Origin: a virus
Reading direction: 5' to 3' (one strand)
IMG/VR virus record: IMGVR_UViG_3300046328_001165
Coordinates: 28,684 to 92,683 of that record
DNA length: 64,000 nt
The first letter of the stretch is position 1, and every line of letters begins with the position of its first letter. Shown here in pieces: positions 2,641 to 21,500 of the stretch. The notes beneath the pieces are model-generated. The model saw only the letters and a program-made list of their open reading frames with translations. It did not search any database and was not told the origin of the DNA. The position numbers were made by a program, and so were the translations under genes.

Positions 2641-4155
2641 ATGCCATTGAACCGAGTTATCGAGCCAATGGCATTTCGTTTTGATGATGTAAGTTTTGCG
2701 ACACGCACTGAGATGCGTGAGGACGGTCTGTATGCATACAGCACCGTTTGTCGTGACGGGATACTAACGTATTTCCGAGGTGACGGCAAGCGAGTCCGTG
2801 AATTGCGACCTGCTTCGGCAAACCGCGATCGCGACTTCCTTGAAGCGCTGAAAGATCTGCCGATGACCGTCGAACATCCGACCTCTTTATTAAGGGGGAA
2901 ACGAGATAGTTCTATTGGTGAGTTAACAAGGGCGGGTGAGTACAACGATTCTGAGGGGGTTGTACAGAATATTGCCCGAATCTCTAACCCCGACTTTGCT
3001 CAGTCTGTAAGGGCTGGCAAAAAGAACGGTTTGAGCCTTGGGTATGAATGCGAAATTGTTGAAGCTCCTGGCGGGGTCTGGTTCGATGCGATCGACCAGA
3101 TTACCTATAAGGGCGATTTCGATCGCGTTCAAACCAAGATTCGACCAGACCATTGCGCCGCAACCGACAACCCACGCGGGGGGAGCGATGTCAGGATGCA
3201 CCTAGACAGCGCCGATACCGATGAGGACTCAGTTGTTGGTCTAGAGCGGTTTGACTCAATCCAAGTTGACCGTCCTAGTCCGAACAGCGTTGTTGTTATT
3301 TCCACAAACAAAAATGAGGGTAGCTCCGCTATGTCCGATTTAAAGACGAAAACCTTGCGCGTGGATGGCGCTGATTATTTGGTGGAGGAAGTAGCAGCCT
3401 ACCCTCTAAGTCAAAAGCTTGCCGAACTATCCACAATTAAAGCGCGTGTAGATTCTCTTGAGGCTGAACTCAAAGAGAGGATCGATACTATTGGCGAACT
3501 CACTTCTGATGTTAACCGCGCCAAGGGTCGTGCCGACGCTCTTGAAGATGAGTTAACCGAAACACTATCCGAGCTTGAAACCGCCCGTGCCGACGGAGAA
3601 AAGATGGCTAAGGAAGACGAAGAAGGTGATGAAGATGAAGACGGCGATGAAATGCCCGACTTTATCAAGAAAAAGATGAAGAAGAAGATGAAGTCTGGCG
3701 AGAAGATGGATGCCTCTGATCTGGCAATCATCCTCGACTCTGACCAAGTTCGTGAATTTATAGCCGAAGAAATTAACAACCAGACCGCAGATCGTCTTCA
3801 CGCTATTGGCAAAGCCAATGATTTACTTTCCGCTAAGGGGGTAAAGATTGAGGACGCGGGTATCGTAACCACGATGGATTCTACCGAGATTCGTCGGGCT
3901 GCGCTCAAAGCTATCAATCCTGATAGTGATCTAAGCGATCGCAACGACAGCTACATCGAAGCTCGCTTTGATAGCGCTGTTGAGTATGCTGCTCAAGCCC
4001 CTGCTACTAGCCATGCTGATCGTCTTGAGACCGCCGTAAAAGCTGGACGCACTACTCGTGGTGATTCTGAGCAGAAGAAGGATGCAGCAGAAGCCAACAA
4101 CGAGCGCTACGGTGAGAACCACAAAAAGCCCTTAACTCGTTCTACCAAGAAATAG
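2641..4155 (+). CDS. Prohead protease fused to scaffold (DUF2213)
   Basis: 504 aa. Residues ~10-195 follow the DUF2213 head-maturation protease: TRTEMREDGLYAY, a conserved 'MTVEHPTSLL' His-Pro segment, 'GKKNGLSLGYECEI' and 'DHCAATDNPRGG'. This is the usual strand with Ser (GLSLGY) and the closing NH/DH…R-G. Residues ~230-500 look like scaffold: a long coiled coil (KARVDSLEAELKERIDTIGE), a very acidic run near residue 325 and Lys-rich helices. The product would guide capsid assembly and then cut scaffold and capsid proteins. It is followed by cement and capsid genes in the standard order. Protease plus scaffold in one ORF is common in this family. Confidence 0.8.
   Translation: MPLNRVIEPMAFRFDDVSFATRTEMREDGLYAYSTVCRDGILTYFRGDGKRVRELRPASANRDRDFLEALKDLPMTVEHPTSLLRGKRDSSIGELTRAGEYNDSEGVVQNIARISNPDFAQSVRAGKKNGLSLGYECEIVEAPGGVWFDAIDQITYKGDFDRVQTKIRPDHCAATDNPRGGSDVRMHLDSADTDEDSVVGLERFDSIQVDRPSPNSVVVISTNKNEGSSAMSDLKTKTLRVDGADYLVEEVAAYPLSQKLAELSTIKARVDSLEAELKERIDTIGELTSDVNRAKGRADALEDELTETLSELETARADGEKMAKEDEEGDEDEDGDEMPDFIKKKMKKKMKSGEKMDASDLAIILDSDQVREFIAEEINNQTADRLHAIGKANDLLSAKGVKIEDAGIVTTMDSTEIRRAALKAINPDSDLSDRNDSYIEARFDSAVEYAAQAPATSHADRLETAVKAGRTTRGDSEQKKDAAEANNERYGENHKKPLTRSTKK
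3331..4155 (+). CDS. Possible nested scaffold from an internal start
   Basis: An in-frame ATG at 3331 (residue 231, MSDLKTKTLRVDG) has GAGGG about 10 nt upstream and falls exactly at the boundary between protease and coiled-coil scaffold. Starting here gives a 274-aa free scaffold, as with nested scaffolds in lambda-type phages (C/Nu3). The internal start is an inference from position and RBS only. Confidence 0.35.
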   Translation: MSDLKTKTLRVDGADYLVEEVAAYPLSQKLAELSTIKARVDSLEAELKERIDTIGELTSDVNRAKGRADALEDELTETLSELETARADGEKMAKEDEEGDEDEDGDEMPDFIKKKMKKKMKSGEKMDASDLAIILDSDQVREFIAEEINNQTADRLHAIGKANDLLSAKGVKIEDAGIVTTMDSTEIRRAALKAINPDSDLSDRNDSYIEARFDSAVEYAAQAPATSHADRLETAVKAGRTTRGDSEQKKDAAEANNERYGENHKKPLTRSTKK

Positions 4156-4168
4156 GAGCAACTAGAAA

Positions 4169-5041
4169 ATGCAAAAGAATTATCGCCAGTATTTTACTCA
4201 GGCTCTCGCTGGAATGGTTGAGGGTATGGGTGTCGGCTCCGTTGAAGCTTATCACAACGACAGCGGCTACACCAAGGAAGTTTGGACGGTTACAACCCCT
4301 GTAACTCCCGTAACAGCAACCCTGTATAGCATCACTTTGTATGACAAGGACACCTCTGATAGCCCTATCACCATCTCTTTCACGACCGCTTCAACCTCTC
4401 GCGCCGATCTAGCAACAGGCTTGTTTAACGCTTTCCGCGCTAACCTTCGCGCTAGTCAGATCACTTCTGTGGTTAACGGTACTTCTACCCTGACCTTTAC
4501 CCATCGCAAAGACAACACCCCAATGTTTGTCAGTGTTGGCGGCGGCGGCGCAGCTCCATTGACCGTGCCTACCACTCCAACCACCGCAGCGGCAGCGCCA
4601 ACCCGCATTCTTTTTGGTGTATTTCTCACCAAAGTTGCTGGCGTAGCTCCCCGCGTTGTGGGCAACCTGACTGGCGGCAGCATTCGCCTCCCTAATGCTG
4701 GAGATGCGATTACTGCAATTTGTGGTCTAGCTCGCTTAAACACCTCCGTTCAAAAGGATGTTGTTGGCGAATTGGCAACCGCAGGTTACGAAGCCAATCA
4801 GTTGGCGGTTGATGTTCAGCGCCGATTGGGAGATCTCTCAGGTATGTGGGTTCCTACGCTGGAAACCAGCATTCTTGAGTCCGATCCTGTCTACATCTCT
4901 GTTGCCGCTGGTTCTAAGGGCTTTGCCCAGAAGACCAATGCTAACAGCGCGATCGACGCTTCAAGCCGCGCTTTTTTCCGCTCTGATGTTGTTACAGACA
5001 TCAACAACAATCGAGTTGTTCTAGTTTACGCAAACTTCTAG
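4169..5041 (+). CDS. Capsid cement/decoration protein (Gp24-like)
   Basis: 290 aa, start ATG at 4169 after AGGAGCAACTAG. It lies between the DUF2213 protease and the capsid gene, the usual place of the cement protein. The C-terminal half (ANQLAVDVQRRLGDLSG…LETSILESDPVYISVAAG…NNRVVLVYANF) resembles the P22-like structural cement family, in which a beta barrel ends with 'D.N.ivlvyvn'. The N-terminal half holds a Thr/Pro-rich insert (residues ~45-150) with a GGGG and poly-Ala stretch, more than the family usually has. It would stabilise expanded capsids at the threefold or quasi-threefold sites. Confidence 0.6.
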   Translation: MQKNYRQYFTQALAGMVEGMGVGSVEAYHNDSGYTKEVWTVTTPVTPVTATLYSITLYDKDTSDSPITISFTTASTSRADLATGLFNAFRANLRASQITSVVNGTSTLTFTHRKDNTPMFVSVGGGGAAPLTVPTTPTTAAAAPTRILFGVFLTKVAGVAPRVVGNLTGGSIRLPNAGDAITAICGLARLNTSVQKDVVGELATAGYEANQLAVDVQRRLGDLSGMWVPTLETSILESDPVYISVAAGSKGFAQKTNANSAIDASSRAFFRSDVVTDINNNRVVLVYANF

Positions 5042-5051
5042 GAGGAGTCCA

Positions 5052-5957
5052 ATGGCTACTGAAATTAAAAACGATGACTGGTCAGTGGGCTACTTTAAAG
5101 AGCAGCTCGTTGAACTTGAGCAGACGATGGAAAAAGAAGAGTACGAAGAGCTTTATTGGGCTAATGGTACTCTCGTTCCTCGCGAGGACTGGAATAAGCC
5201 TTGGCTTGAAGAAACTGGCTACCGCAAGGTGACTGGTATCGGTCGGTGGGAAGCTGCTCGCGATTACACTACTCACGTCCCTAACGTTGAGATCGTATCG
5301 AGAGAGTTCCGCCAGCGCGTTTCCGAGCACATCGGTGGCTACACTGTTAACGACAAAGAGCTTGAGCTTTCTCAGCAATTTGGCACAGGCATTGACGCTG
5401 AGAAAGTTCAGATCGTGCTTGAGGCGGGTCAGCAATATCTCGATAAGATGGTATTCCTTGGTGATGGGCAGCTTCGTGGCTTCTTCAACCACCCTGACAC
5501 CCTGAAGTCTTATTCAGCGTATCGCTTTGACAGCAATGCTACTGTTGCTCAGATGCTGGCTGTGTTGAACGACACTGGCAACTCTATGCGTCGCTTGACT
5601 CGTAATATCGAGACCCCCGACACCATCTTGTTTGCTCAGGCTGTTCACGACGAAATCAGCTTCCGTCGTTTGTCCGACTTCAATAGCGACTCGGTTCTTG
5701 ACTATTACCTCAGTAAAGCGACTTACATCAAAGATGTAATGGCTTTACTACCTCTTGAGGGTGTTGGTGATGGTAATTCCAACGTGTCCTGCTATTACAA
5801 GCGCGACCCCAAGAAGATCAAGTTCCGCATCACCGAGCCCTTCCAATTCAAGAAGTGGATCGAACTTCCTCGCGGTATGCAGCGCACTGCTCGCATGAGG
5901 TACGGTGGATTGATCATCAAACGCCCTTACTCTGTGAACTGGGTTCACGGCATGTAA
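5052..5957 (+). CDS. Major capsid protein (DUF2184, HK97 fold)
   Basis: 301 aa. AGGAGG lies 6 nt before ATG at 5052, the strongest ribosome site of the head cluster, as expected for the most abundant protein. The sequence follows the DUF2184 capsid plan: an N-arm rich in Glu, 'RKVTGIGRWEAARDYTTHVP', 'GGYTVNDKELELSQQFG', 'VFLGDGQLRGFFNHP', then a P-domain and a C-terminal 'RTARMRYGGLIIKRPYSVNW'. Length fits the family. A strong intrinsic terminator follows directly, which would set capsid mRNA apart from downstream genes. Confidence 0.85.
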   Translation: MATEIKNDDWSVGYFKEQLVELEQTMEKEEYEELYWANGTLVPREDWNKPWLEETGYRKVTGIGRWEAARDYTTHVPNVEIVSREFRQRVSEHIGGYTVNDKELELSQQFGTGIDAEKVQIVLEAGQQYLDKMVFLGDGQLRGFFNHPDTLKSYSAYRFDSNATVAQMLAVLNDTGNSMRRLTRNIETPDTILFAQAVHDEISFRRLSDFNSDSVLDYYLSKATYIKDVMALLPLEGVGDGNSNVSCYYKRDPKKIKFRITEPFQFKKWIELPRGMQRTARMRYGGLIIKRPYSVNWVHGM

Positions 5958-7082: not shown

Positions 7083-7502
7083 ATGGCAACATTCCCCGTC
7101 GTTACCTCAGACACCTTTACCTCCGACGCTACGTTTTCGGATTTTATTGGTGAGTCACCAACCTTTATCCAGAGTTGGCTAAACGTTTATTCGCGTTTCT
7201 GCTCGATCGAAGAGTGGGGTGATAATGCGGAAATGGCGGTAATGTTGCTGACCGCCCACTATTTAGCTCTAAACACTGAAGAAGGTACGGTCACGATTTC
7301 CAATGCCAAGGCGATCGATACTGGCGAGTCTATGTCGAATAGACGGACTTCAACCCCCGCCAACAGTAACGGCAAATTCTCCGATGTCTATCTATCGCGA
7401 ACTACCTATGGGCAGCAACTCTTGATGATCAAGGAATTGATATTGTCGGGTGGTTTTATGGGTGACAGTATCCCTGCCGTGCCGCCGTTTATTGCTTTCT
7501 AG
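7083..7502 (+). CDS. Head-completion protein (DUF4054)
   Basis: 139 aa. The pattern 'SWLNVYSRFCSIEEWGDNAEMAVMLLTAHYLAL' followed by a loop and 'TTYGQQLLMIKELI…GGFM' fits DUF4054, an adaptor that binds under the portal and is usually encoded soon after the DUF2184 capsid protein, as here. It starts 4 nt after the preceding stop and is followed by a terminator. Confidence 0.7.
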   Translation: MATFPVVTSDTFTSDATFSDFIGESPTFIQSWLNVYSRFCSIEEWGDNAEMAVMLLTAHYLALNTEEGTVTISNAKAIDTGESMSNRRTSTPANSNGKFSDVYLSRTTYGQQLLMIKELILSGGFMGDSIPAVPPFIAF

Positions 7503-7592: not shown

Positions 7593-8129
7593 CTAGCCAA
7601 AGATTTCCTTTCTCCTTTCTTTGCTCAGGGACATCACCTCTTTGCGCGATACGTCTTTCCCTGTGGCGACAGACTTGGCGATTGCGCCTACAACCTTTAT
7701 GTCGTCCGTAACTGCGGTAGCAGATCTCTTGACTACATTTTTAGCGGCTCTCGCCACACTGCCAACACCACTTTTGACTTCACCTAAGTTCTGCTTTCTC
7801 TCTTGGCTTAAATCGTTAGTTCTACCTCCAAGTAATCTGAGATCGTCTTTTACCGCCTCAGCGGATCTCCCTACCACTTTTTTTTACGGCAGAGCCAAGA
7901 CCACCAGATCCTACCTTACACTTTTCAAGCATAGGTATACAGCGCGAACCACAGGGTTTATTGCCAATCTTGCATTTTGGTGCGTCCTCCCTTTTTTTTT
8001 TATCGAAGCCTCTGCATCTATACGCACTTGGAACTGGGAGATCGCGTATTTAACACTAGAATTAGACACGGTATAATCCTCAACGTTGATATAAGCAATT
8101 AAGACTTGTCGATTAGCAAAAAATACCAC
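7593..8129 (-). pseudogene. Minus-strand Cys-motif family gene split over three frames at two poly-A tracts
   Basis: Three reading frames join into one plausible protein if two A-tracts (A10 at 7992-8001 and A8 at 7878-7885, read on the minus strand) are corrected. Frame one (GTG 8129, or GTG nearer the RID motif) gives 'VRIDAEASIKK'. After a shift of -2 or +1 the second gives 'REDAPKCKIGNKPC' and 'GSRCIPMLEKC'. After a second shift the third gives 'VVGRSAEAVKDDLRLLGG' and ends at 7593. The corrected junction RID…REDA-KC matches the intact gene at 8610 (RIDTLIDQLREDAKCGSG), so the shifts are real relative to the ancestral frame. The C-terminal part holds two copies of a '(R)SAxAVxDDLxxxG' helix. 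The causes could be assembly error in homopolymers, decay, or slippage expression. It is the only minus-strand gene of the plus-strand block. Confidence 0.65.
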
Positions 8130-8208
8130 TTAATCTCAATTAGCGATCACACTATTAATATCTACGGCGATCGCTAATCTCCCAAGAAGGCTGCTTGTCC
8201 ACACATTC

Positions 8209-8613
8209 GTGCCGAACAATATCGTTATGTCGCTAGCTAACAAGATCACCACGAAACTTCAAGGATTGCGCGATCGCCTCGCAGGAGGTGCGATCGGTGC
8301 GCCTAATGTGTTGCCATTGACAGTTGTGACTCGCACCGCATCGGGTGAAACCAGTCTTGAAATCTTGCCGCATCCCACGATTCTGCGGGTAAACCCTAAA
8401 ACTGTAGCCCTGTTTGAAAGTACCAATATCAAGGTTGGTGTTGACGATTTTCAGATCAGCGGTATATCTGCGGCGTACACCGAGGCTCAGCTTACGGGCA
8501 AGGGTAAATATTACATCGTTGATGGGCGAATCAAGTGCAACGAGGTGATGGGCACTATCGAGAATAAGAGTTTTTCTTGGGAAATTATTTTGACGAGGAT
8601 GCCAAACAGATGA
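8209..8613 (+). CDS. Unknown neck/tail-region protein
   Basis: 134 aa from GTG 8209, or 128 aa from ATG at 8227; neither has a clear Shine-Dalgarno site. The first 25 residues are a basic amphipathic helix (LANKITTKLQGLRDRLAGG), the rest looks all-beta (EILPHPTILRVNPKTVALF, GKGKYYIVDGRIKC). Its position after the head-completion gene suggests a connector or tail-completion role (inference only). The stop overlaps the next start by ATGA. Confidence 0.55.
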   Translation: MPNNIVMSLANKITTKLQGLRDRLAGGAIGAPNVLPLTVVTRTASGETSLEILPHPTILRVNPKTVALFESTNIKVGVDDFQISGISAAYTEAQLTGKGKYYIVDGRIKCNEVMGTIENKSFSWEIILTRMPNR

Positions 8614-9023
8614 ACACCATTTACGCAAGAATTGACACTCTTATTGACCAGCTCCGCGAAGATGCAAAGTGCGGATCGGGCAGTAAATCCTGCGGCAAGG
8701 TCTGCATCCCCCAAGAGAAGAATTGCTTAGGCGAAACAGCAAAAGCTTTTGGTGGTGGTGCGGCTCAAGCCCTTGCGGGTCCACTTGGCAGTGGCACTTA
8801 TCGGGCGTTGAGATCGCAGGGTCGTAGTCGAAGGACTTCTATTGCGGGTGCGATCGGAGCGAATGTAGCCGCTTCTGTGGGCAGTGTAGCTCTCGCTTCT
8901 TATGCGATGAACAAGGCTAAAGAAGGGCTTCGAGATCCTGTTAACAAGGGTGTAAGTCTTGGCAAAGGTATAACCAAGATGGCTGACAAAGATTTCGAGA
9001 AAGCCAAGAAAAAGGGTAAGTAA
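8610..9023 (+). CDS. Cys-motif modular protein (targeting segment, four-Cys motif, Gly-rich helix)
   Basis: 137 aa from ATG at 8610, preferred to an upstream start because it gives the standard ATGA overlap. Modules in order: residues 1-17 'IYARIDTLIDQLRED' (shared with the middle of the next protein), residues ~18-37 four-Cys motif CGSGSKSCGKVCIPQEKNC, a Gly/Ala-rich region (AFGGGAAQALAGPLGSG; AGAIGANVAASVGSVALAS) that may cross or insert in a membrane, and a Lys-rich tail. The Cys spacing resembles small metal or disulfide knuckles, but no known family was recognised. Role unknown; possibly a virion-packaged protein. Confidence 0.7.
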   Translation: MNTIYARIDTLIDQLREDAKCGSGSKSCGKVCIPQEKNCLGETAKAFGGGAAQALAGPLGSGTYRALRSQGRSRRTSIAGAIGANVAASVGSVALASYAMNKAKEGLRDPVNKGVSLGKGITKMADKDFEKAKKKGK

Positions 9024-9025
9024 TT

Positions 9026-10870
9026 ATGTACGAGATCGCATCTCTATCAAAGGTAGTCCGCCACGATGTCCAAACAGAGGTTAAGGTTCCAGCGCAGAAC
9101 GGACGTAAGGCTTACTCGTATTTTCGCAATGCTAGCGCAGTTAAGAAAGGCGCTGCGGGTGTTGGCGCAGCTCTTGCTATTGGCGGACTGACTGCGGCGG
9201 CGATCGCGCTCAGGAAGAAGTCAGAAGAGTCAAATGCTTTGCCAGCACCAGTTGGGGTTCTCACTCCTATCGTTGCACCTCAATCCACTGCAAGTCGAGC
9301 TGGTGAGTTCGCCAAGAAAGCGGCGATCAAGGCTGGTAGGGTCGCAGGCGGAGCAGTCCTTAATGCTGCGGGAGCCGTAGTTATTGGTCAGGTCTCTGGA
9401 CGTGTTATCAAGGAAGCAGTAAAAGACAGAAGATCTCCTGAGCAAAAAGCGGCAGCTTGGAAGCAAAAGGAGGAAGAAGAAAGAGAAGGGAGGGAAGCTC
9501 GATACGCCGCGTTTTTGCAATCAGATCCTAGGGCTACGGCGAAAGATAATATTGAATATCAAGAGGGGATGGCTCAGAGGGTCGTCGAAAGAGTTCGAGG
9601 CGAGGAGCTAGCGCCCCTCATTGAGCAGGATGTATCAAAATATCTCAAAGAAGTGGAAGTGGCGGAAAAAGATCTTCTAAGCAAGATGTCTAGACCCGAT
9701 CGCCTGCCACCACCAAAGCCAAGACTAGAGGTTGGCGGAGCATTAGCCCCTGTCAACCAACCTCAAACCACTACACCCCCTATTCCAGATCGATTGCCAT
9801 ACAATCCTCGCGCACCCAAGGTGTCTACTAGCGGACTAACTTTTGCTGCAAGCGAACCTTCGGCACAACCTCAAAAACCCAAATTCGTCCAAGTTGCTGG
9901 TCAGGCTGGCGCTGCTTTGGGGCGCTTATATCGGCAAAGTAAAGAGCGGGATCGTATGGCTAGAGAAAATCTGGCGAATAATACCGTAGATCTTAATAAA
10001 GTCGCTGAAGGTGTAGGTCGAGGCGCTAGGTCTGTGTTGAGTGCTGTTGAGGGGTTCGCCCGTAAAGCCAAGCAAAGAGTTTCTGAAGATATCCAAACAA
10101 TTGACATAAAAGCCGAAGAGGTAAAAGAGTCGAAGGCATCTGAGGATCTCAAGGGAGTTCAGACCAACGCGCTTCCCGAAGGTGGCAAGAGAAAACCTGG
10201 TCGCCCGAAGACCAAGTTTACGCCTAAAGATTTTATTAGCCCAGACAGTAAACGGGCGAGAAACAACTCCATTTATATGCGTATTGACAGCTTTGTTGAT
10301 CGGCTCCGCAAGGATACCCAAATCGAAGTCAAAGTCCCAGCGCAGAACGGGCGCAAGGCTTACTCGTATTTCCGCGAAGGCAATGAAGGCGAGGTGGGTT
10401 CTCCACGGATACCCTCCCGCAAAATTGTAGCGGGTGTTGGAGGCGCGATTGCGGCGGCTGGGTTGGCTGGATTAGCAGCGATCGCACTGAGAAACAGATC
10501 GGAAGCGATGAAGACTGTTGCGCCCGATGCGAAGCCTAAAAAAGCGATTGATATCAAAAAAGATATTGTTATCCCTTCAGTGATTGGGGCGAGTAAAATC
10601 GTTTTAACCGCAGAACTGGTGAAAGGTCTTAATGGTGTGGTATCTAAAGTTAGGGGAGTTAAACCCTCGGTGAAGGAAGAGTCGAAGACTGTTCCCGATC
10701 TGAAAGCCCCCAAGCCCGATCCTAGTGGCAAGGAAACGATTACGCCCGAAGAATCGGCAAAAGTAGATCCAGTAGTGGAAGTACCCTCCTTACCCGCCGA
10801 GCCAGAAGAGTCGAAGGTAGTTGCTCCAAAACGAGGAAGGAAGCCTCGCGCTGTCAAGCAGGCTTCGTAA
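9026..10870 (+). CDS. Modular protein with duplicated VPAQNGRKAYSY-plus-helix unit and AT-hook-like ends
   Basis: 614 aa. Two copies of a unit occur. Residues ~17-75 hold 'EVKVPAQNGRKAYSYFR' then a hydrophobic helix (GVGAALAIGGLTAAAIAL). Residues ~415-490 repeat 'EVKVPAQNGRKAYSYFR' then 'VGGAIAAAGLAGLAAIAL', preceded by 'IYMRIDSFVDRLRKD', the same N-terminal module as the gene before. Between them lie charged coiled segments and Pro-rich linkers. Near residue 388 KRKPGRPKTK and near the end PKRGRKPRAVK are AT-hook-like and could bind the minor groove. The layout looks like a fusion of two family members. Function unknown. Confidence 0.7.
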   Translation: MYEIASLSKVVRHDVQTEVKVPAQNGRKAYSYFRNASAVKKGAAGVGAALAIGGLTAAAIALRKKSEESNALPAPVGVLTPIVAPQSTASRAGEFAKKAAIKAGRVAGGAVLNAAGAVVIGQVSGRVIKEAVKDRRSPEQKAAAWKQKEEEEREGREARYAAFLQSDPRATAKDNIEYQEGMAQRVVERVRGEELAPLIEQDVSKYLKEVEVAEKDLLSKMSRPDRLPPPKPRLEVGGALAPVNQPQTTTPPIPDRLPYNPRAPKVSTSGLTFAASEPSAQPQKPKFVQVAGQAGAALGRLYRQSKERDRMARENLANNTVDLNKVAEGVGRGARSVLSAVEGFARKAKQRVSEDIQTIDIKAEEVKESKASEDLKGVQTNALPEGGKRKPGRPKTKFTPKDFISPDSKRARNNSIYMRIDSFVDRLRKDTQIEVKVPAQNGRKAYSYFREGNEGEVGSPRIPSRKIVAGVGGAIAAAGLAGLAAIALRNRSEAMKTVAPDAKPKKAIDIKKDIVIPSVIGASKIVLTAELVKGLNGVVSKVRGVKPSVKEESKTVPDLKAPKPDPSGKETITPEESAKVDPVVEVPSLPAEPEESKVVAPKRGRKPRAVKQAS

Positions 10871-10897
10871 TCACAGAAAAATGGCAGACAGGTAATC

Positions 10898-13525
10898 ATG
10901 TACGCGATCGCACCAACACCAGTAATTCAAAACGCAGATCCACTCGCAGCCAGAAAGATAATCGCGAGAATATTAACTCGCATAATTTCTCGCGCTTACG
11001 GAAGCATCGACCAAATCGTTAGTATCGACATTGCTGATGATGGTCTGATTACCTGTCTATTTCGTGACGACGACAAAGATCGAAAGTTAATTCGATTAGT
11101 GTTAGGCGATCGCGCTGAATACAGACAAATTCTTGATGGGCGTAATGATTCGCTAAATATCGATACAGATCAGTATTTAGTCGCGTATGCCAATAGTATT
11201 GGTCAGCGTACCGACAAGGTATCTAAACCGAATAACTGCAAAATAGGTACATCCTGTAAGGGCGCTTGCATCTCTAAGACCGATGTTTGTCGTGTCGATG
11301 TACCAGAGGTTTTGAATAGGCAGGAGATTTCCGATCTGAATGACGCGGTAAACGACGTTCAGAGGGCAAAATTTGTTGGTGTTGCGCCAGTTTCGGACGA
11401 ACTTGATAGCAAGAATATTCGCGAATTGAAGGATGAAGCCCGTAAAAGGGGCGTGTACCGCTATTCGTACATGAATCAATCTCAGTTGCGAGAGTCTATT
11501 CGTTTGCAACAGGCTAATCCCGAACGCCAAAATATTGTGCGAGAAGGGCTAAGCCGTAATGCGGCGAGTAAGAAAGCGCTCAAAAGCTTACTGCCTCAGC
11601 CTGTGGCTGGAGCATGGAAAGACATTGAGAAAATCAGTAAATTCTTTGGCGACAATCGCCCTGCGGCAGGAGTATTGGCGGCAAGCGTATTGCTAGGTAT
11701 TCCATCGTCGGTAATGCTTTCAGCTCGCGATCGCTACAAAGAAGGCTTACCCGAATCGGCACTAATGGCATATCAAAGATCGCAAACCACCCCCGTAGAG
11801 CCAACTAGCAAACCTCAAATCACTTTTGCTGTAGGTGGGTTCTCTAATCTCGGATCTTCGGGCAGTAAAGTTGCTGAATACTTGAAGACACCTTTAGACA
11901 CATCGAAGCGCGAGCAGTGGTTTAACAAGACCCAAGAAATCATCGCCTTTGATAGTCCTGAATTTAATGTTCCTCCTACAAAAATCGACAAAAAAGACAA
12001 GGATGGTAAATACAATCCGTTGTACTTGGGGTATGTTGCCAAGGAAAGTTTTGGTAAATATCTAAGCAATGTTGTAGGCGGCAGAAATGAAGCTGCTGTA
12101 GACTTGGCTTCCAAGTTATATGCTTATGGCTCCAAGTACCGTAACAAACCTTTAAACGTCGTTAGCTATGGTTCTGGTGGCAATGTAATCGACGAAGCTG
12201 CGGAAATCGTTAGCCGCATCAAGCCAGAAAAGGGGCTTGATGGCAGGGAGATCTTAAAGCGGCTAAATATTGCCAGACTTGGCGGAGCCTCTTTTGGTTT
12301 AACTGGTGGCACAACTCAAGACGAAAAGAACTGGGCAAGTATTAATAACCGTACTATCACGTCAAAAAACGATCCGTTTTCGATCCTACCCAAGAGGTTC
12401 TCTCAATTTGTTAGCTCTGTAAAGGGTGGTGAGATTGAGGATTACCTGACGAATAGCGATGCTAGAGACAAGATTCGTGAGGTGTTTGGCTTCTTCTCCA
12501 ACTCTGCTGCGGGAAGTAAGATAACCAATGAAGCGAGTGACGAGATCAAGAAATCCTTGAAGGATGTAGCTAAGACGATCAATCCAAAGCTCGGAAAGTT
12601 GGCGAACCTGATTGACGGCATCTCGTCGAAATACTCAAACAACCCCGTAGCGGCGGCGATCGATACTGCTGGGGCTTTAGCTGTCACGGGTGTTGCCGTG
12701 GTCGCTAAGTCCAAGCTTAATTACAAAGAGAATCTTGGCAACTCGGCAAGCAAAGCTCAGGAGATGGTTTCTAGTGGGCAGGTCTCCCCCATCTCCATTT
12801 CCAAGCCCAACGTTATTATCACTGTCGGAGATGCCGAGATAGATGGCGATGAGATGAAGAGAAAAATCGAAGGCGCAAAACAAAGCTCTGGGCGGGGGTT
12901 GGTAGCGAATAACTACCTAAATAACAGTGAAGTAATTGCATTTGACAGACCTTTTCTAACACCGCCCTCAAGGAATAAATTTATGGCTCCTGTAGATCTA
13001 ATGGCAAAGACCTATGAAGCTGTTATGAATAGAACGCTAGCAGCGGGTACAGATCCAGAAGCCATTCGACTGGCTGCAAATATTTACGCGATCGCAAACA
13101 CCCCCTACGCGGGTACTGCTAACTCCTATCCGTCTGTCTCCGTCGTGGGACTGAAGCAGGGTGGCGAAACAACGAAAAGGGCTTTGGATATTTTGGAAAA
13201 AATGACCAAGGTTCAGGTTGGGGCAAAGGCAGATCCCAATATAGTTGGTGGAAGATCTGTTTCCTCTGGTCAGGTGCATATCATCACGTTAGGAACCCCT
13301 GAACTCGATTTCGGGGGTAAAGGCGCAAACGCCGCTAGAAATGATTTATGGGTAGATGGGGACATATTTGGGCAAACACCTTTAAAAGGGTCTGCCCCAT
13401 CGTACATCTCTACACAAGGTAATGGCAGTGCTAGTGATTACCTTGAAGCTCCTGTGGTTGCGGATCTATTGGGCAAGCTATCCTCAACCTCGTTTGCGAG
13501 AGCGAAGAAAAATAGGAGGCAGTAA
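10898..13525 (+). CDS. Cys-motif protein with two tandem alpha/beta-hydrolase-like domains
   Basis: 875 aa. An N-terminal domain (1-105) is followed by the four-Cys motif at ~114-131 (CKIGTSCKGACISKTDVC), then a Rho-N/SAP-like helix pair at ~170-200 (ELKDEARKRGVYRYSYMN). From ~305 an alpha/beta-hydrolase-like fold starts (ITFAVGGFSN); near 424 'NVVSYGSGGNVI' sits at the nucleophile elbow, though the first Gly of G-x-S-x-G is Tyr, and near 490 'TSKNDPFS' could supply the acid. From ~638 the plan repeats (VIITVGDAEID…VIAFDRPF), but at the elbow it reads VVGLKQGGET, so this copy lacks a Ser nucleophile. A hydrophobic helix precedes each copy. A lipase or esterase acting in the host envelope is possible (inference). 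Confidence 0.65.
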   Translation: MYAIAPTPVIQNADPLAARKIIARILTRIISRAYGSIDQIVSIDIADDGLITCLFRDDDKDRKLIRLVLGDRAEYRQILDGRNDSLNIDTDQYLVAYANSIGQRTDKVSKPNNCKIGTSCKGACISKTDVCRVDVPEVLNRQEISDLNDAVNDVQRAKFVGVAPVSDELDSKNIRELKDEARKRGVYRYSYMNQSQLRESIRLQQANPERQNIVREGLSRNAASKKALKSLLPQPVAGAWKDIEKISKFFGDNRPAAGVLAASVLLGIPSSVMLSARDRYKEGLPESALMAYQRSQTTPVEPTSKPQITFAVGGFSNLGSSGSKVAEYLKTPLDTSKREQWFNKTQEIIAFDSPEFNVPPTKIDKKDKDGKYNPLYLGYVAKESFGKYLSNVVGGRNEAAVDLASKLYAYGSKYRNKPLNVVSYGSGGNVIDEAAEIVSRIKPEKGLDGREILKRLNIARLGGASFGLTGGTTQDEKNWASINNRTITSKNDPFSILPKRFSQFVSSVKGGEIEDYLTNSDARDKIREVFGFFSNSAAGSKITNEASDEIKKSLKDVAKTINPKLGKLANLIDGISSKYSNNPVAAAIDTAGALAVTGVAVVAKSKLNYKENLGNSASKAQEMVSSGQVSPISISKPNVIITVGDAEIDGDEMKRKIEGAKQSSGRGLVANNYLNNSEVIAFDRPFLTPPSRNKFMAPVDLMAKTYEAVMNRTLAAGTDPEAIRLAANIYAIANTPYAGTANSYPSVSVVGLKQGGETTKRALDILEKMTKVQVGAKADPNIVGGRSVSSGQVHIITLGTPELDFGGKGANAARNDLWVDGDIFGQTPLKGSAPSYISTQGNGSASDYLEAPVVADLLGKLSSTSFARAKKNRRQ

Positions 13526-13983
13526 TGAAATTAGATACCAAAATCAAGGTTGACGTGCCAGCAGCGCAAGGGCGAAAAGCGTACAGCTACGCTTTAGCTC
13601 TTAAAAGCCTAAAGCGACGCGAAAAAAGGGCTCAGTCTAATTCAGACTCAAGCAGATTAGACACAACATGCGATCGCGGCAAACCATGCCAAGGCGAAGA
13701 CGGACAAACTTACTGCATCCCCCAAGGGGCTACCTGCGGTAAAGGCAAGGTCGGCAGAATCATCAAAGGTGTTGCTGGCGCGGTTGGTCGCGGCGTGATT
13801 ACTGGCTTAACTGCCGCCGCGATCGCCAAACTTGCTAGCAAGGGTAAGGCTGGGTTGAAAGAGGATTTTAATACGGCGAAGATCATTTTTAATGCGGGTC
13901 GCACCACTGGCAAGATTGAGTCCAAGGTGGCGAATGGGGTCAAAGCTGTTAGTCGGATAATTAAGAACCGAGGTAAGAAATGA
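13525..13983 (+). CDS. Cys-motif modular protein (VPAAQGRKAYSY, four Cys, Gly/Ala helix)
   Basis: 152 aa. ATG at 13525 shares one base with the preceding TAA; GGAGG is 6 nt upstream. Residues 7-22 'IKVDVPAAQGRKAYSYAL' is the same module found twice in the 9026 gene. Residues ~50-74 hold a four-Cys motif with a longer middle loop (CDRGKPC…YCIPQGATC). Then come Gly/Ala helices (GVAGAVGRGVITGLTAAAIA) and a basic C-terminus. The combination V-module plus C-module plus helix differs from its neighbours and shows module shuffling. Unknown function. Confidence 0.7.
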   Translation: MKLDTKIKVDVPAAQGRKAYSYALALKSLKRREKRAQSNSDSSRLDTTCDRGKPCQGEDGQTYCIPQGATCGKGKVGRIIKGVAGAVGRGVITGLTAAAIAKLASKGKAGLKEDFNTAKIIFNAGRTTGKIESKVANGVKAVSRIIKNRGKK

Positions 13984-15095
13984 CAAGAGATTTAGCGGAC
14001 GACCTAGCCTACCTTGAGGGGCAGATATCCGTGGCTCTACGCCATGATGCTGGCAGAAAGCTCAAATGTAAAGAAGGCTACGTTCAGCGCGGGAATGCCT
14101 GCCAAAAAGTCACTAAGAAGGCTTCTGGAGGTAATCTCGCGAGGAGTATTGGTACGGGCTTGGGTGTTGCGGCTTTAGCTGGAGGTGCGGCGGCTGGAGT
14201 GGCGATCGCGTCAAGACGGGGCAGTCAATCAGGCAATTCGCCTGTAAGCAAACCAGATACTTTGCCTGCAAAAATCGAGACGGTTTCCTCGGCTTTACTC
14301 CCCAAAAGAAGAGAATTGATCGCGTATAAAGCGTCAAAGGTGCTCTCAGATAAGCGGGTTCGCAAAGCGGCGATCGCGGCAGGTAGTACTGGAGCTGTAA
14401 TTGCAACAGTTGTCGGAATAGGCAGTGTAAAGCTAACCAAAGATTATGCGGTTAAAGACATTGCATTGATAATGACCTACAAGCAGAGCTTGATACTAGG
14501 GAAAGCCGCAGATCGCATCCTAGATAAATCCGATATAAACCCAGACTTAAAAGGTAAGGCTAAGGACTTGATTGGTATGACCAAATTAGCCTTGGCTAGA
14601 AAAACTATGTCCGTCAAGGGTCGCGACCTTATCGATGTGGATAAGGAGTCAAACAGCTTTACATATAGAGACAGAAAGAATGGAGGGATTTATACAGTAG
14701 CTTCTGTTGGTCCAGCCTTGTATACCTTTACCAGCGTGTTTAAAAAAGAGGTTTCCGCAGGGAAAGTTTACGAGGTTTCTTTTGCTATAAACGAATCCAA
14801 CAATAGGGAAGAATCAGCGAATCTTGGGGCTTCAGGAGCTAAGCAAATTATAAGATTAACAAGACAGTCTTTCGACAAGCATGTTGAAGCCGTGCCCGAC
14901 AATGTAATTCTAACCGCAGGTGCTTACGACAAAGATGGTGCAGGAAAAAAGCGTAAAAACATCTATGAGAATGTCGGTTTTGCCCCTATGGAGGGTCAAG
15001 ATCCTATGGTCTTGTACGCAGCAAAGAAGGATGGAAAACTTCAGCCGCTGTCGAGTGTCTACAGCGTGAAGAAACCCCCAGAAGCTAAGACTTAA
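13980..15095 (+). CDS. Modular protein with Cys motif, two hydrophobic helices and acetyltransferase-like C-terminus
   Basis: 371 aa, ATGA overlap with the previous gene. Residues ~13-45 'YLEGQISVALRHDAG' plus 'LKCKEGYVQRGNACQK' form a reduced Cys motif. Two Gly/Ala hydrophobic helices follow (LGVAALAGGAAAGVAIA; AIAAGSTGAVIATVVGIG). The C-terminal ~150 residues run 'KVYEVSFAINES…SGAKQIIRLTRQSFDKHVEAVPDNVILTAG…RKNIYENVGF'. That order of 'y.V.F…A..v…v..~i..~v…p..i.f.a…K..~Y..l.' resembles GNAT-like domains seen in phage virion proteins; I give this only as a lead. Confidence 0.6.
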   Translation: MTRDLADDLAYLEGQISVALRHDAGRKLKCKEGYVQRGNACQKVTKKASGGNLARSIGTGLGVAALAGGAAAGVAIASRRGSQSGNSPVSKPDTLPAKIETVSSALLPKRRELIAYKASKVLSDKRVRKAAIAAGSTGAVIATVVGIGSVKLTKDYAVKDIALIMTYKQSLILGKAADRILDKSDINPDLKGKAKDLIGMTKLALARKTMSVKGRDLIDVDKESNSFTYRDRKNGGIYTVASVGPALYTFTSVFKKEVSAGKVYEVSFAINESNNREESANLGASGAKQIIRLTRQSFDKHVEAVPDNVILTAGAYDKDGAGKKRKNIYENVGFAPMEGQDPMVLYAAKKDGKLQPLSSVYSVKKPPEAKT

Positions 15096-15504: not shown

Positions 15505-15548
15505 CCATAAAAATAACTGAGAAGAATATTTCTCGGTTATTTTTATGG
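15505..15548. terminator. Terminator-like hairpin that contains the tape-measure start codon
   Basis: Arms of 19 bp (CCATAAAAATAACTGAGAA and complement, one G-T pair) enclose loop GAATAT. The right arm includes ATG 15545-15547 of the tape-measure gene. A/T runs flank the GC-poor stem, so terminator strength is moderate. Confidence 0.65.
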
Positions 15549-18500
15549 CTTCCCAGCAAACAAACGTTGTCGAGATCTTAATACAAGCCAAAGATCAAGC
15601 CTCAAAGACGATTGGCACATTAAGCGACTCACTTGGCACGGCTGGAGCCGCAGCTCAGTTTGCTCAGGGAAAAATAACAGCTCTTGGTGGCGCATTGCTC
15701 ACCACGTCTGTTTCTGGTATCAAGTCTTTAGGGTTGTTAGGTAGCGCGATTCAGTCGATTCGCTCGTCACTGGATACCCCTGTTGGGCAAACATTGATCC
15801 AACAGATCTCCTTGGCAGCGGACGAGGCTCTTGGCAAAGCAGCTAAACTCTCGACGCTAGTTAAAGAAGTATCTGGTGTATCCAAGGATTTTGGATCGGG
15901 CTTTGCGTCAAGGTCTTCGAGTAGCACGATTCAGCTATTCGACCCGTCGGTAACTGGGAAGCAGTTAGAAAACGTAGTTATCAAGACGGCTGATACATTT
16001 TCTAGGTCTCTTGAACAAAAGGTTAGAAATTCCGATCTAGCAACAGCGTTTGAATCCAAACTCGGCGTAAGTATAGATTCGATCGCTTCTCAGTTGGACA
16101 GCTCACTGTCTGAAACTCTTCTTTCAGGATTTGTGGGTAAGACGCTACCCAGCGCCCTTGACACGGCGTTAGGTAGCGTCTTCGGCGTGAACCTCACCTC
16201 AAAAATTGTTCAATCTATACAAGCCGCAGGTAAGTCAAACCTTCTTGGCGGAGCTGTTGGTAAACTGGCTCAGGGGTCCGTAAGCGGGGCGGCAAGAGAA
16301 TTGGTGATCGGAGAGCTAACCCCAAATCTTGAAGGGGCGCAGTTGGCTGGAGCCAAACTGTCTAATGTCTTTGGTAAGAAAGTAGCTCAAGCGGTATTAG
16401 GAGAAAGAACTCCTGCTAGCGCAGAATTTAAGCAGATTGACGAGCAATTAGGTGGGGCGCTTGGTGATGTCATTAGCCGCCTTGGGCAAAGATTCCCTGA
16501 TGTTCTTGGAAAAAGCGACCTCCCTATCGGCAAGTTACTTGCCACCAAGTTGAGGGGGCTTGCTGAGGTTACATCAAAAAACGAATTACAGGCAGCAGGG
16601 AATCTGTTTGTTGAAACAGCCTTTTCTGGGTTAAGGGGCATTCGCAAGGACTTTTTGGGCGACGACTTGAATGCGGTTTTTGATCTTGTCATAGCACCAG
16701 CTTTCGACGCTCAGAAGGAAAACCTGAAAAAGCTGATTGGCATAGATTCCGACACATTTTCTCAAGGGTTTTTAGACCCGCTCAAAAAAGCGTCTAAAAA
16801 TCTAGCGAAGGGCTTTGACGACAGCTTAGAGGCAGGGCTTGGTGCGCTAGGGAATGGAGGTGCAATCGCCGAGTACTTGGGGGATGTTGATGAGTTTTTA
16901 GGTGGTGGGATAACAGAAGCCTTATCTCTTGCGGGGAATAAAGCCGCCTCCAGTTTTGCTGACGGGTTTAGAAGCGCAATTTTTGAGGAAATTACTGGCG
17001 TAATCGACAATGTTGACGCTTTTGTTCTGGGAAATTTAGAACAGGTTAAACAGATCCCCCAGAAGCTTACACAGCCCGTTGGCTTGGTGTCATTGGTTGC
17101 AGATCCACTCGCGGGTGCTACCGAGCCGCTAGAGCTTTTTGAGTTGCTTGAAGCGGGTGCGGGTAAGGCAACCAACGCCATTTTTGAGGTTTCTCAGCGA
17201 CTAACATTCCTTTCTTTTGGCTTTCAAGCTCTCCAAGGTTTCGTTCAAAACGGTCCATTCGATCTGCTTATTGGGCAGAATGCGAGACTGCAAGAACAAC
17301 TTCTAGCGACACAGGCGAGCCTTGTAGCCACAAACAAGATTCTTCAGAATGGCGTCGTAATTTCCGATCCGACAGCAGCTATCAAGGCTTTGGGTCCTGC
17401 GGTTGAAGGTGCGATCGCCAAAATTCGGAAAGACTCACTAGAGCTTGTCGGCGTAACCTCCAAAGATCTCGTAGATTTATTTCAGATTGTTGCTGGTCAG
17501 GCAAGTAATATTGGGGCGAACCTAGATCAGTCCGCCAATATTGTCACGTCAACCGCTGCTGCGCTCGGAACTCTAGGCATCCCTTTGTTTCAGGCAAGGC
17601 AAGAAATCACCTCAATCGTGCAGGGGACGATTGACCAAAACTCTTTGCTAGCCAAAAACTTGAATCTCAACAATGAGATGGTCAACAAGTGGAAGGCACA
17701 GGGAACCTTCGTTGACGAGCTGTTAAAAAGACTGGAAGCGTTTAGGGCGGGGAACAAACTCGCCAGTCAGACGATATCGGGGATTACGAGTAACATTACC
17801 GAACTTTTTGATGAGATTGGACGCAAGGCAGGGGCTAAATTTTTAAGCCCGATTGTCAAGGAATTGGACAATGTTTATCAGTTTCTTGCGGCAAACCAAG
17901 AGACGATTTCAGCCCAAGTTGAGCAGCTTGTTTCTACGTTATTCGTAGCCTTTGACAAGATCGTAGTCCTGTTTAAGTCTTTGGGAGATCCGATCGCCAA
18001 AATCTTTGGTGGCATTCCTGCTTACTTAACAGGTTCGTTGGTCGGGGCTATTACCGCGTTCTCTGATGCAATAGTTTTTACCGTAAACGTTCTCAAGCCA
18101 GCTATCTCTGTGTTTGCCGAGGTTTTTAAACTTATTGCGCCGCTAGGGGGCTTATTTATAACGGCTTCCATCGGTGCAAAGGTCCTATCCGCAGGGATAC
18201 TAGGTCTGGGGCAAGGGTTTGGGTTTCTCGCAAAACTTCTACCTGGTCTTGGCGAACTACTCTTTCTTGTTGATAAGAGATCTAACAGTCTTTTTAATCA
18301 GTTTCTAAACCTTACATCGGTATTAGGTAATAGGGGAGCGGCAGGTTTTCTAACCTTTGCGGCAAATTTAGACAAGATACCTGGAGCCGCAGGTTTCGCT
18401 ACCAAGCAATTGCAGGGTCTTCTTGGTAGTCTAGCTCCTTTGTCTGGGTTTCTGGTCTCTTTAGCGCCTCAAGTCGGGGGGTTGGGAATAAAGCTGGCGG

Positions 18501-21500
18501 GTTTAGCCCAGGCGTTTCCTGCCCTTAAAAATGTTTTTGAGAAGGCTTTTATTGGCGCTCCAGGCGCTTTGTTGGTCTTGTCGAGAGTCGTTGGCAAGAG
18601 CGAGATCTTTGGAAGTCTCGCCCCCCTCATTGGGGATGCATCAAAGCAGCTTGCGAAGTTTACGGGTATTGCTGGTAATGCGGAGAAGGCGAATTCCTTA
18701 CTCGCCAAGAGCTTGCAACTAGGTGGCGCAGCCGCTAGAGAGTTCGCCGTAAATAGCGTATTACTTGGCGCTGGAATTGGTATCGGGTTCATCTTCTTTG
18801 ACCAGCTAATCCTAAAGAATAAGGGTCTCCAAAAAATTATTCAAGACCTAATAGGAACTATCCGTAAATTTGCGGACACGGTGGGTGCGGTTCTTGGTCC
18901 AGTGTTTAAACTGATTGGCGACACAATTTTGCCGCTGTTTACTTTTGGGGAGAATTCTAATCCTTTCCAGAAGATTGTTGGTGGATTGCTGATTGCGATC
19001 GCGGTTGTAAAACTTTTTGGTGGAACGATAACCAATGTATTTAAAACCGTAAACGTCAGTATCGGAACTCTTGGGACTGGCATTTCGGAGACTTTTACTA
19101 AAATCAAGAGGGCTAATGACAGCCTAAAGGAAATACTGGGGCTTGCAAGCGAGGAGGGTAAAAGCAAGACTTTTACCAGCCCCGTCCTAGAGGAAGACCC
19201 AAAGAAAAGAAGGGAAGCTAGATCTGCTCTACTCAAGGAAGCTTTGGCAGCTAAGAAGCAAGAGTCGCTCGCTTTAAGTTCTGGGGAAGCTGAAGCCGCA
19301 AGGAGTAAAAAGAATTCACTTACGCAGGTAGCGCAATCCTTGGTAACAGGGGAGGCAAAAATTTCGATCCCTTCGGCGGGGATTATAACTCAGCGGGATG
19401 TGACCCAAGCCAAACTGCGTGTATCCGAGATAACAAAAGATATCATTCGGTTCTCGAAAGAGGCTAGACAGAGCGCGACCGTAGACCCTGTGGCTTCAAG
19501 TATCGCAACAGCGAGAAGGGAGTTTGCGATCGCTCAGGCAAATGCGGTTAGAGCAGGTATAGAGAATCAGAAACTTATAGCCCCTTTAAGTCAGTTGCTG
19601 TTTGAGAAGCCCACTGCTTTACTGTTTCAGCTCGGAGCTTCTGCATCTGAAGGGTTCAGATCAAACCTTTTGAAAGCTGGAGACGCGATTAATAATTTCG
19701 CCCTGAGAGGTGGGTTCGCATTATTAGAGCTTGAAAACAAAATAAGAAGTGTCCCAAAAGTCTTTAACGACATAGCTTTGAAAGGAGGCTTTGCTCTGCT
19801 GAGCCTTGAAAACGGATTGAGAAACATTCCAAAATCCCTTGATACTATAACCACAAAAGCTGGGTTTGCCTTGCTAAGCCTTGAAAACGGTCTTAGAAAT
19901 ATTCCCAAGACTTTTGACAACATTGCTCTGCGAGGAGGGTTTGCCTTACTAGAAATAGAGAAGGGTTTAAGAAACATTCCCACGGCTTTTTCTGGGGCGA
20001 TCGCCTCTGTTGATCAGAAAATCAAAAGCCTGTTTAGTGGTGGAGCAAAAAGGTTTGATTTCGGCGAGGCTCTCAGGGACTTGGATACAAGGGCAGGCAA
20101 CTTTGTCGATCCTGACCGAGCAGAAAGGCTGAAAACTCTAGAAGAAATAAAATCCTTTAACGAAAAGCGCAAAGCACTCATTGCTGACGCTAAAACCATA
20201 GATGCTGGTACAGGGCTGTCTGCGGAGGGCTTTACCGCCGAGAAGATCGGGAAGGAAGTCCAAAGTGTAGATGCTAATATTCAGGCGTTAAGCGCAAAAG
20301 CTGAGCAGCTAGATATTCCCGTAAGAAAAGCGGCGAAGGGGCTTGTCAACTCCTTTAAAAACGTTATTGCAGAAATCGGTCCAACCTTACTGCTCACGGC
20401 TTTGTTCGCTGGCATTACTACCTATATCGGTTTCATTGATGAGCAGTCAAAAATTGCCGCCGACGGCGCTGAGCGATTAGGTAACACCCTCAGAGAAAGT
20501 AAGGCGAAACTCGATATCCTCAACAAGTCTCAGGGTAGAGATGCTTTGGGTGAACTAACAAAGCTTACTGCGGAAAGACAAAGGTATGTAGATGCTATCA
20601 AAGATCCTAAAGTACTTAATGACGACCCAACCCTAAAGCTTTACGATCGCCAAATAAAGAAACTTCAAGAACTTAGGGCATTACAAGCTAAACCTGTAAA
20701 TGCCGAAGGACAAATCAGACAGGAGACAGACAAGGAATTTGAGTCCTTCGATAAGAAGTTTATCTCCTTCTTGGGTGGTCTCACTGGAACCAACGTAAAG
20801 GAATCAACCAATCAGGTAAAGATAGCCTCAGAGAATGTCAACTTAGCCCAAAGCCAAGCTGAGGGTCGTGAGCTGAGGTCTCAGCTTCGCGAACAAGCAG
20901 CTTTGCAGGAAGGGCTGATCAAGCTTGAACAGAGAAAGAATCTGCTTCAAGGGCAAGGTGACAGCGACGGGGTGGCTCAGATAGAGATTGAAATAGAGAC
21001 ACAGAAAGAATCCATCGCGGTAAGAAAGAGCTTTCTTGATACGGTTATCAAGGGTGTTGAAACCAATAAGTTAGACAGCCAAAGTAAAAGAGATCTTTTG
21101 GAAGATCTAAAAAAGCTTAAAGTTGCCTACGATCCCGCTAACTTAAAAATCGCACCTATCGACCTACCTCGTATTGGTGGTGCTATTGAACAGGCTGCGT
21201 CGAGATACCAAGCTGCGGTTACGGCGCTTGCTAGATCTGCTGGAGATCCAACCCTGTTTAAGACAAAAATAACAGAGCTGCTCGAAACGGCAACCGCATT
21301 ACAAGATGCAGGTATATTGCGAGCCGATGAAGTAGCCAAAAACTTTATCGGTATCGCTGCCAACGTATCTGCTGATCGCGATCAGCAGATTAAAGCCCAG
21401 CAAGCTATCACTGAGGCTTACCAGAAAGAGTCTCAGAAGCGTATTGCTACGATCGATGCACAGCAGGCGAAGATCCAAGCTTTGCTCGCTACTGGGAAGA

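Follow-up and report, generated by a model that had tools for sequence, protein, structure and literature searches.

In phage T4, the prohead protease cuts after a short acidic-ended motif (L/I-x-E) that is common to scaffold, shell and ejected proteins, and internal proteins carry capsid-targeting propeptides (PMC9026906); SPN3US presents a similar case (PMC5694885), and in P1 one protease processes both DarA and the capsid protein (PMC12810830). Another described group comprises the polyvalent proteins of phages and conjugative elements (Iyer et al. 2017, PMC5512222), of which a particular paucity was reported in cyanobacteria. The locus analyzed here lies in a stretch of 64,000 nucleotides (the window; G000:C1:28684-92683), part of a 92,683-base IMG/VR virus record. 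It is a block of genes between head and tail genes, whose products share a leader with an R-x-D motif and a four-Cys module, joined to exchangeable cargo; genes are named after their first position in the window. The source is a freshwater cyanobacterial virus, and its host is almost certainly a cyanobacterium, because the palindrome GCGATCGC, which is typical of cyanobacterial DNA, occurs 98 times in the window against 0.75 expected.

With moderate confidence, the block can be read as a cassette of capsid-internal effectors that are targeted and probably processed via R-x-D and then ejected. Targeting by the leader with probable cutting at R-x-D is the likeliest mechanism, because R-x-D followed by A or S has the format of known prohead-protease motifs. 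In its fullest form, the leader would open with either a small alpha/beta domain or the strand VPAQNGRKAYSY, continue with R-x-D-[A/S/T] and close with a basic knuckle of four Cys; it would carry the proteins into the prohead along with the DUF2213 protease/scaffold. Probably the protease cuts between R-x-D and the following A or S, which would remove the leader and split multi-domain proteins at internal R-x-D sites; the scaffold and the capsid N-terminus (the latter in most relatives) are probable further substrates of the enzyme. Matured proteins would begin with the Cys knuckle, which may bind zinc, DNA or the shell and is often followed by a hydrophobic helix, and would be retained with the DNA. 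Ejected into the cyanobacterium, they might act on host proteins, membrane or nucleoid through hydrolase-derived, GNAT-like and DNA-binding domains in the window, and through JAB, ADP-ribosyltransferase (ART), HExxH, DnaJ and kinase-like domains in relatives. A bolder version, somewhat less probable than not, is a delivery code of the cyanophages' own: the R-x-D/four-Cys leader would load any cargo, the DUF2213 protease would split a multi-effector polyprotein, and the enzymes would be ejected with the DNA, by a system unrelated in sequence to the T4 capsid-targeting sequence or to P1 Dar, in a group of hosts for which a lack of polyvalent proteins was reported.

The proposed effectors resemble the T4 internal proteins IPI-III and Alt (cut by gp21, PMC9026906): a short N-terminal signal precedes unrelated cargo, ART is among that cargo, the cargo varies between relatives, and a short acidic-ended motif (L/I-x-E in T4, R-x-D here) is common to cargo, scaffold and shell. 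Unlike in T4, R-x-D is followed by A or S, coupled to a four-Cys knuckle and repeated inside polyproteins, and the protease is of the DUF2213 type, not gp21; T4 internal proteins are cut, whereas cutting of the cyanophage leader is predicted from sequence. P1 DarA and DdrB are likewise head-internal, and DarA is cut by the capsid-protein protease and then ejected (PMC12810830). Their cargo differs and, to our knowledge, neither carries a Cys knuckle.

As with polyvalent proteins, multi-domain products predicted to be injected are encoded in the head gene region, beside portal-terminase genes, and the shared cargo classes are metallopeptidase, ART, GNAT, kinase, JAB/RadC, Rho-N/SAP and inorganic pyrophosphatase (InPase) fused to the portal. 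Domains of disparate activities are combined in one polypeptide in 10898 of the window and in two open reading frames (ORFs) of relatives (L006 9821 and L010 11738). The hallmark domains (zincin MPTase-PolyVal, ArdC-N, LPD) are not represented by any Pfam, PHROG or NCBIfam match in the window proteins. Unlike polyvalent proteins, the effectors are seemingly released by the prohead protease via R-x-D, not by a built-in peptidase. PMC5512222, in which "cysteine", "lipase", "hydrolase" and "DnaJ" have 0 occurrences, makes no mention of the Cys leader, and the open-licence literature yielded nothing on the leader of CL131 and PaV-LD (cultivated relatives introduced below), on the tie that R-x-D makes to protease and capsid protein, or on the exchange of cargo. 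The whole block would work like the published polyvalent proteins and like T4-type internal proteins as well, while its leader, polyprotein layout and cargo set are new.

The R-x-D motif in protease, capsid protein and cargo

Compared with shuffled sequences, R-x-D-[AST] is found 22 times against 3.2 expected in the DUF2213 protease/scaffold, 5 against 1.1 in the capsid protein and 34 against 9.4 in the cargo, in counts where homologous modules are not independent. It is not enriched in tape-measure (3 against 3.9), neck (1 against 2.1) and decoration proteins (0 against 0.65). In the window, the DUF2213 gene encodes 7 such sites (1.1 expected) and the tape-measure protein 2 (1.6 expected). 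The phage CL131 has 11 against 2.0 in protease, capsid and cargo proteins and 14 against 10.3 in the remainder; for PaV-LD the numbers are 15 against 2.7 in ORF71-87 and 10 against 6.5 elsewhere. When 1,600 gapped residue pairs were compared in six protease-scaffolds without preselection of the motif, R.D was the most enriched (p=2e-11) and DS the next; R-x-D is most often followed by A or S. The N-terminal R-x-D is invariant in eight DUF2213 sequences, together with EHP, S-x-G-Y and the candidate catalytic residues H79, S132 and H171.

The same motif appears at the capsid N-terminus of most relatives, as [IL]R-x-D-[AS] at residues 8-11 (CL131, L006, L010, L042 and L045), as TTRLDA (PaV-LD) or as TRADA (L007). 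It also precedes the Cys modules: R-x-D stands at most 20 residues upstream of 49 of the 62 distinct modules and downstream of 3, compared with 8% of random 20-mers. Across differing cargo domains, R-x-D-[A/S] of the leader is placed a few residues before the four-Cys knuckle.

Alternatively, the proteins might be packaged without processing, with R-x-D left uncut and serving only to dock cargo, capsid protein and protease onto scaffold or shell. This is unlikely, even if the very short motif is degenerate (K-x-D or R-x-D-K in some cargo, K-x-D-D in the window capsid protein), targeting and cutting residues are separable in the T4 capsid-targeting sequence (PMC9026906), and a cut at capsid residues 8-11 would take off only about ten residues: R-x-D is repeated many times in the protease gene's scaffold part and also separates the domains of giant polyproteins, an arrangement that fits cutting better than docking.

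Several points weigh against the reading of the block as packaged, processed and ejected effectors. The capsid N-terminus of the window and of its relative L003 is IKNDD, not R-x-D-[AS], and 13 of the 62 Cys modules lack R-x-D. Single protease sequences show modest R.D enrichment (p from 5e-4 to 0.5), and in the cargo set the leading pairs, dominated by the Cys motif, do not include R.D. In addition, a position flanked by neck and tape-measure genes, like that of the block, is one at which tail proteins would be expected as well. The earlier note had proposed that the proteins are packaged and ejected, with the N-terminal piece as a targeting or cleavage signal for the prohead protease. Its proposal is partly supported: it gains from the R-x-D common to protease/scaffold and relatives' capsid N-termini, from host-modifying cargo and from the JAB-MuF fusions, while the window capsid protein has K-x-D-D at that position.

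A universal role of R-x-D in phages with DUF2213 proteases is only partly supported: the pair R.D takes fourth rank (p=5e-4) in the proteases of T1, B054, S-CBS4, phiEt88 and E217, and the E217 protease is without R-x-D-[AST]. The gene order of the head region is also present in Pbunavirus, where gp24 of Pa193, encoded two genes 5' of the capsid gene, is a proposed scaffold that stays in the virion and may be cut; in E217, residues 1-65 of the capsid protein cannot be seen and may have been removed by cleavage (PMC11042391, PMC10329688).

If the effector reading is true, the gap reported for polyvalent-type proteins in phages of cyanobacteria would be filled, and a readable sequence tag would mark unknown dark-phage proteins as capsid-delivered effectors. 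It would also suggest a substrate rule for the widespread DUF2213 protease, relatives of which are found in 1,777 phage records (tblastn), and a candidate address tag to load proteins into cyanophage heads. The reading is testable in the cultivated phage CL131, for which virion mass spectra exist (23 proteins by liquid chromatography-tandem mass spectrometry, PMC6293099).

Conservation of the block and exchange of its modules

The whole block is present in the IMG/VR contigs L003 and L004, with 10898 at 68% identity. More distant relatives are the contigs L006, L007, L008 and L042-L048, a Nostoc linckia prophage (L010) and the cultivated Aphanizomenon phage CL131 and Planktothrix phage PaV-LD. 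In the relatives examined, the block is flanked by the DUF4054 neck gene on one side and the gene for the tape measure on the other. Direct homologues or proteins with the same leader include CL131 gp044-gp048 and PaV-LD ORF78-81 and 85, annotated as hypothetical or virion proteins; these PaV-LD proteins, as well as ORF61 and 65, bear the same Cys motif. For 13980, neither tblastn in phage records nor a pattern scan in IMG/VR gave a match, and the pattern scan of IMG/VR for 9026 was also empty; both genes are therefore known only from the window and L003/L004.

Module order and partners vary among the relatives. In L003, the 8610 module is relocated to the C-terminus of the 9026 homologue (70% identity over 106 residues), and the counterpart of the second leader of the window 9026 (75.5% over 49 residues) heads another protein, one that has a JAB-like THNHP motif. 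Leader cargo in relatives comprises alpha/beta-hydrolases, JAB proteins/peptidases and ART (PF01129, E=2e-5; a second ART-like domain in PaV-LD ORF85 by alignment), while HExxH was seen by eye in PaV-LD ORF80/81 only, without a model match. A capsid-block polyprotein (L006:9821-14470) combines four Cys modules and hydrolases with a C-terminal DnaJ domain (E=1e-13), possibly a delivered co-chaperone. In the Nostoc prophage, L010:11738-16987 contains hydrolases and, between two Cys modules, a HipA-like kinase signature (residues ~1425-1498; E=3e-4, below the Pfam cut-off).

In other phages, the same JAB domain is fused C-terminally to Phage_Mu_F or Phage_min_cap2 head proteins, i.e., MuF/minor capsid proteins with C-terminal effectors, unlike in the cyanophage block, where it is joined to the R-x-D/Cys leader. 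Among the fetched JAB relatives, the Cys motif is found only in cyanobacterial and cyanophage-like ones. Firmicute and methanogen genomes, as well as phage contigs, widely encode the domain (L012-L028, L049-L095); in several tested cases it forms a C-terminal part of minor head proteins, and in Kangiella (L017) it lies inside a 3,487-residue ORF. The CL131 portal protein gp012 (L029:8800-12981) is fused to InPase (E=1e-18) and Mu F (E=5e-12) domains, an architecture named for polyvalent proteins.

The duplicated alpha/beta-hydrolase domains proposed for 10898 are backed by Foldseek, whose top matches are cutinases/lipases and almost all hydrolases (prob >=0.9, TM ~0.5 by target, E ~0.1), and by its homologue CL131 gp048, which passes the Pfam cut-offs for DUF676 (E=3e-8) and Lipase_3. 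In correction of the earlier note, both repeats are without the nucleophile Ser (GSGG and LKQGG instead of G-x-S-x-G). Because both elbows are degenerate, 10898 is probably a binding or inactivated hydrolase version. The elbow is kept as GHSAGG/GHSGGG in the CL131, L007 and L010 homologues.

The location between DUF4054 and tape measure in the examined relatives and the absence of the nucleophile serine in the window repeats would also suit neck/tail structural or chaperone parts (tail completion, tape-measure partners) that reuse enzyme-like folds structurally. This explanation is improbable, since close relatives swap cargo wholesale, the cargo spans ART, JAB, DnaJ and kinase-like domains, the CL131 and Nostoc homologues retain their elbows, and tape-measure and neck proteins show no R-x-D enrichment. 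Equally improbable are late non-virion proteins (morons) acting before lysis, with the Cys knuckle merely a zinc or redox module: hydrophobic helices also fit membrane-active proteins made in the cell, but the R-x-D common to protease, scaffold and capsid protein and the JAB-MuF fusions indicate the prohead, and PaV-LD ORF85 (Cys and ART-like) matches PHROG_16619 "minor head protein".

Host-gene origin was rejected as the main explanation: the Cys profile matches in 1 of 386 cyanobacterial genomes, and bacterial genomes scanned with the hydrolase alignment gave no match. Judged by the profile scan, the Cys module is phage-borne. The Nostoc linckia genome has a second Cys-module gene (G001:C14:38850-38942, in a 693-residue frame) apart from the L010 prophage.

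Genes and leader variants of the window

All six genes named in the earlier note are present, five on the plus strand and one antisense remnant (Table 1). Their leader had been described as "RID...LRxD", and this form was indeed recovered in 8610 (RIDTLIDQLRED), within the central part of 9026 (RIDSFVDRLRKD) and in the 7593 remnant (RIDAEASIKKK...REDAPKC, across two frames); the looser form in 13980 is LRHDAGRKLKC. Likewise, VPAQNGRKAYSY occurs twice in 9026 and once, as VPAAQGRKAYSY, in 13525. BLASTP within the window aligns 9026 with 13525 (64% over 22 residues, E 4e-6) and 8610 with 9026 (50% over 20 residues, E 2e-5). The statement that no named family has this layout holds for Pfam, PHROGs and NCBIfam, where the leader has no family match among the window proteins.

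Table 1. Features of the head region and the leader-Cys block, in window coordinates
Position	Strand	Feature	Evidence
2641..4155	+	DUF2213 head maturation protease, C-terminal scaffold-like region, rich in R-x-D-[A/S/T]	PF09979 E=2e-11; PHROG_530 head maturation protease E=1.5e-46
4169-5041		Probable decoration protein	
5052..5957	+	Major capsid protein, DUF2184 type	PF09950 E=3.6e-24; PHROG major head protein
7083..7502	+	DUF4054 neck/head-completion protein, upstream border of the block	PF13262 E=4e-8
7593..8129	-	Broken antisense leader-Cys gene copy: RIDA, REDAPKC, C-x5-C-x3-C-IP-x5-C at 7974-7918, coiled tail	Three-frame translation; profile match E=2e-8
8209..8613	+	Neck/tail protein, outside the Cys family	BLASTP: 91% identity with L003 counterpart; PHROG_27999 E=4e-8
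8610..9023	+	Leader (RIDT...REDA), four-Cys module (8670-8726), Gly/Ala-rich hydrophobic helices, without catalytic domain	Profile match E=2e-11
9026..10870	+	Two leader copies (VPAQNGRKAYSY 9086-9121, 10334-10369; RIDS...RKDT 10280-10318), hydrophobic helices, AT-hook-like stretches (~10181-10219, ~10820-10867)	
10898..13525	+	N-terminal alpha/beta leader domain, four-Cys motif (11237-11290), Rho_N/SAP-like segment (~11399-11518), two alpha/beta-hydrolase repeats (~11810-12490, ~12803-13387)	Rho_N weak, E=0.02; Foldseek; alignments
13525..13983	+	VPAAQGRKAYSY leader, RLDT, wider Cys motif (13669-13737), Gly/Ala-rich helix	
13980..15095	+	Leader LRHDA, C-x10-C (two Cys only), hydrophobic helices, GNAT-like C-terminal domain (~14547-15092)	
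15545..24316	+	Tape-measure protein, 2,923 residues, downstream border of the block	Position and length; equivalent is CL131 gp049

The four-Cys motif, previously assigned to four genes, stands in 8610, 10898 and the 7593 remnant; 13525 has a wider C-x5-C-x8-C-x6-C. The strict motif was found 3 times in window ORFs against a mean of 0.0 in 200 shuffles and is thus not due to chance. AT-hook-like tails are visible in the sequence, as had been observed. Gly/Ala-rich hydrophobic helices are also visible, although not after every Cys motif: a hydrophobic stretch follows the motif in 57% of cases against 21% by chance, and is mostly missing after JAB and ART modules, which led to rejection of a transmembrane helix as an obligatory element of the module.

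The frame of the 7593 remnant is broken at the T-runs 7878 and 7992 (runs of 8 and 10 bases), and these breaks could be homopolymer assembly errors or real decay. At this site, L003 has an unrelated 107-residue ORF. Downstream of the block, ten more large ORFs in the tail and early regions (24400-63293) have no Pfam match at 0.001.

Foldseek, suggested before for each module, was run on the 10898 hydrolase repeats and the 13980 C-terminus and returned hydrolase and GNAT-like folds, respectively. The GNAT-like assignment of the latter comes from the fold search only and has no Pfam counterpart; the AlphaFold model (pLDDT 69, from a two-sequence alignment) retrieves nearly exclusively GNATs among its top matches, the toxins TacT and GmvT first (E ~1e-3; TM low, 0.2-0.3). 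In L003, the homologue of 13525 starts at the MRLDTTC position and is 82% identical over 98 residues.

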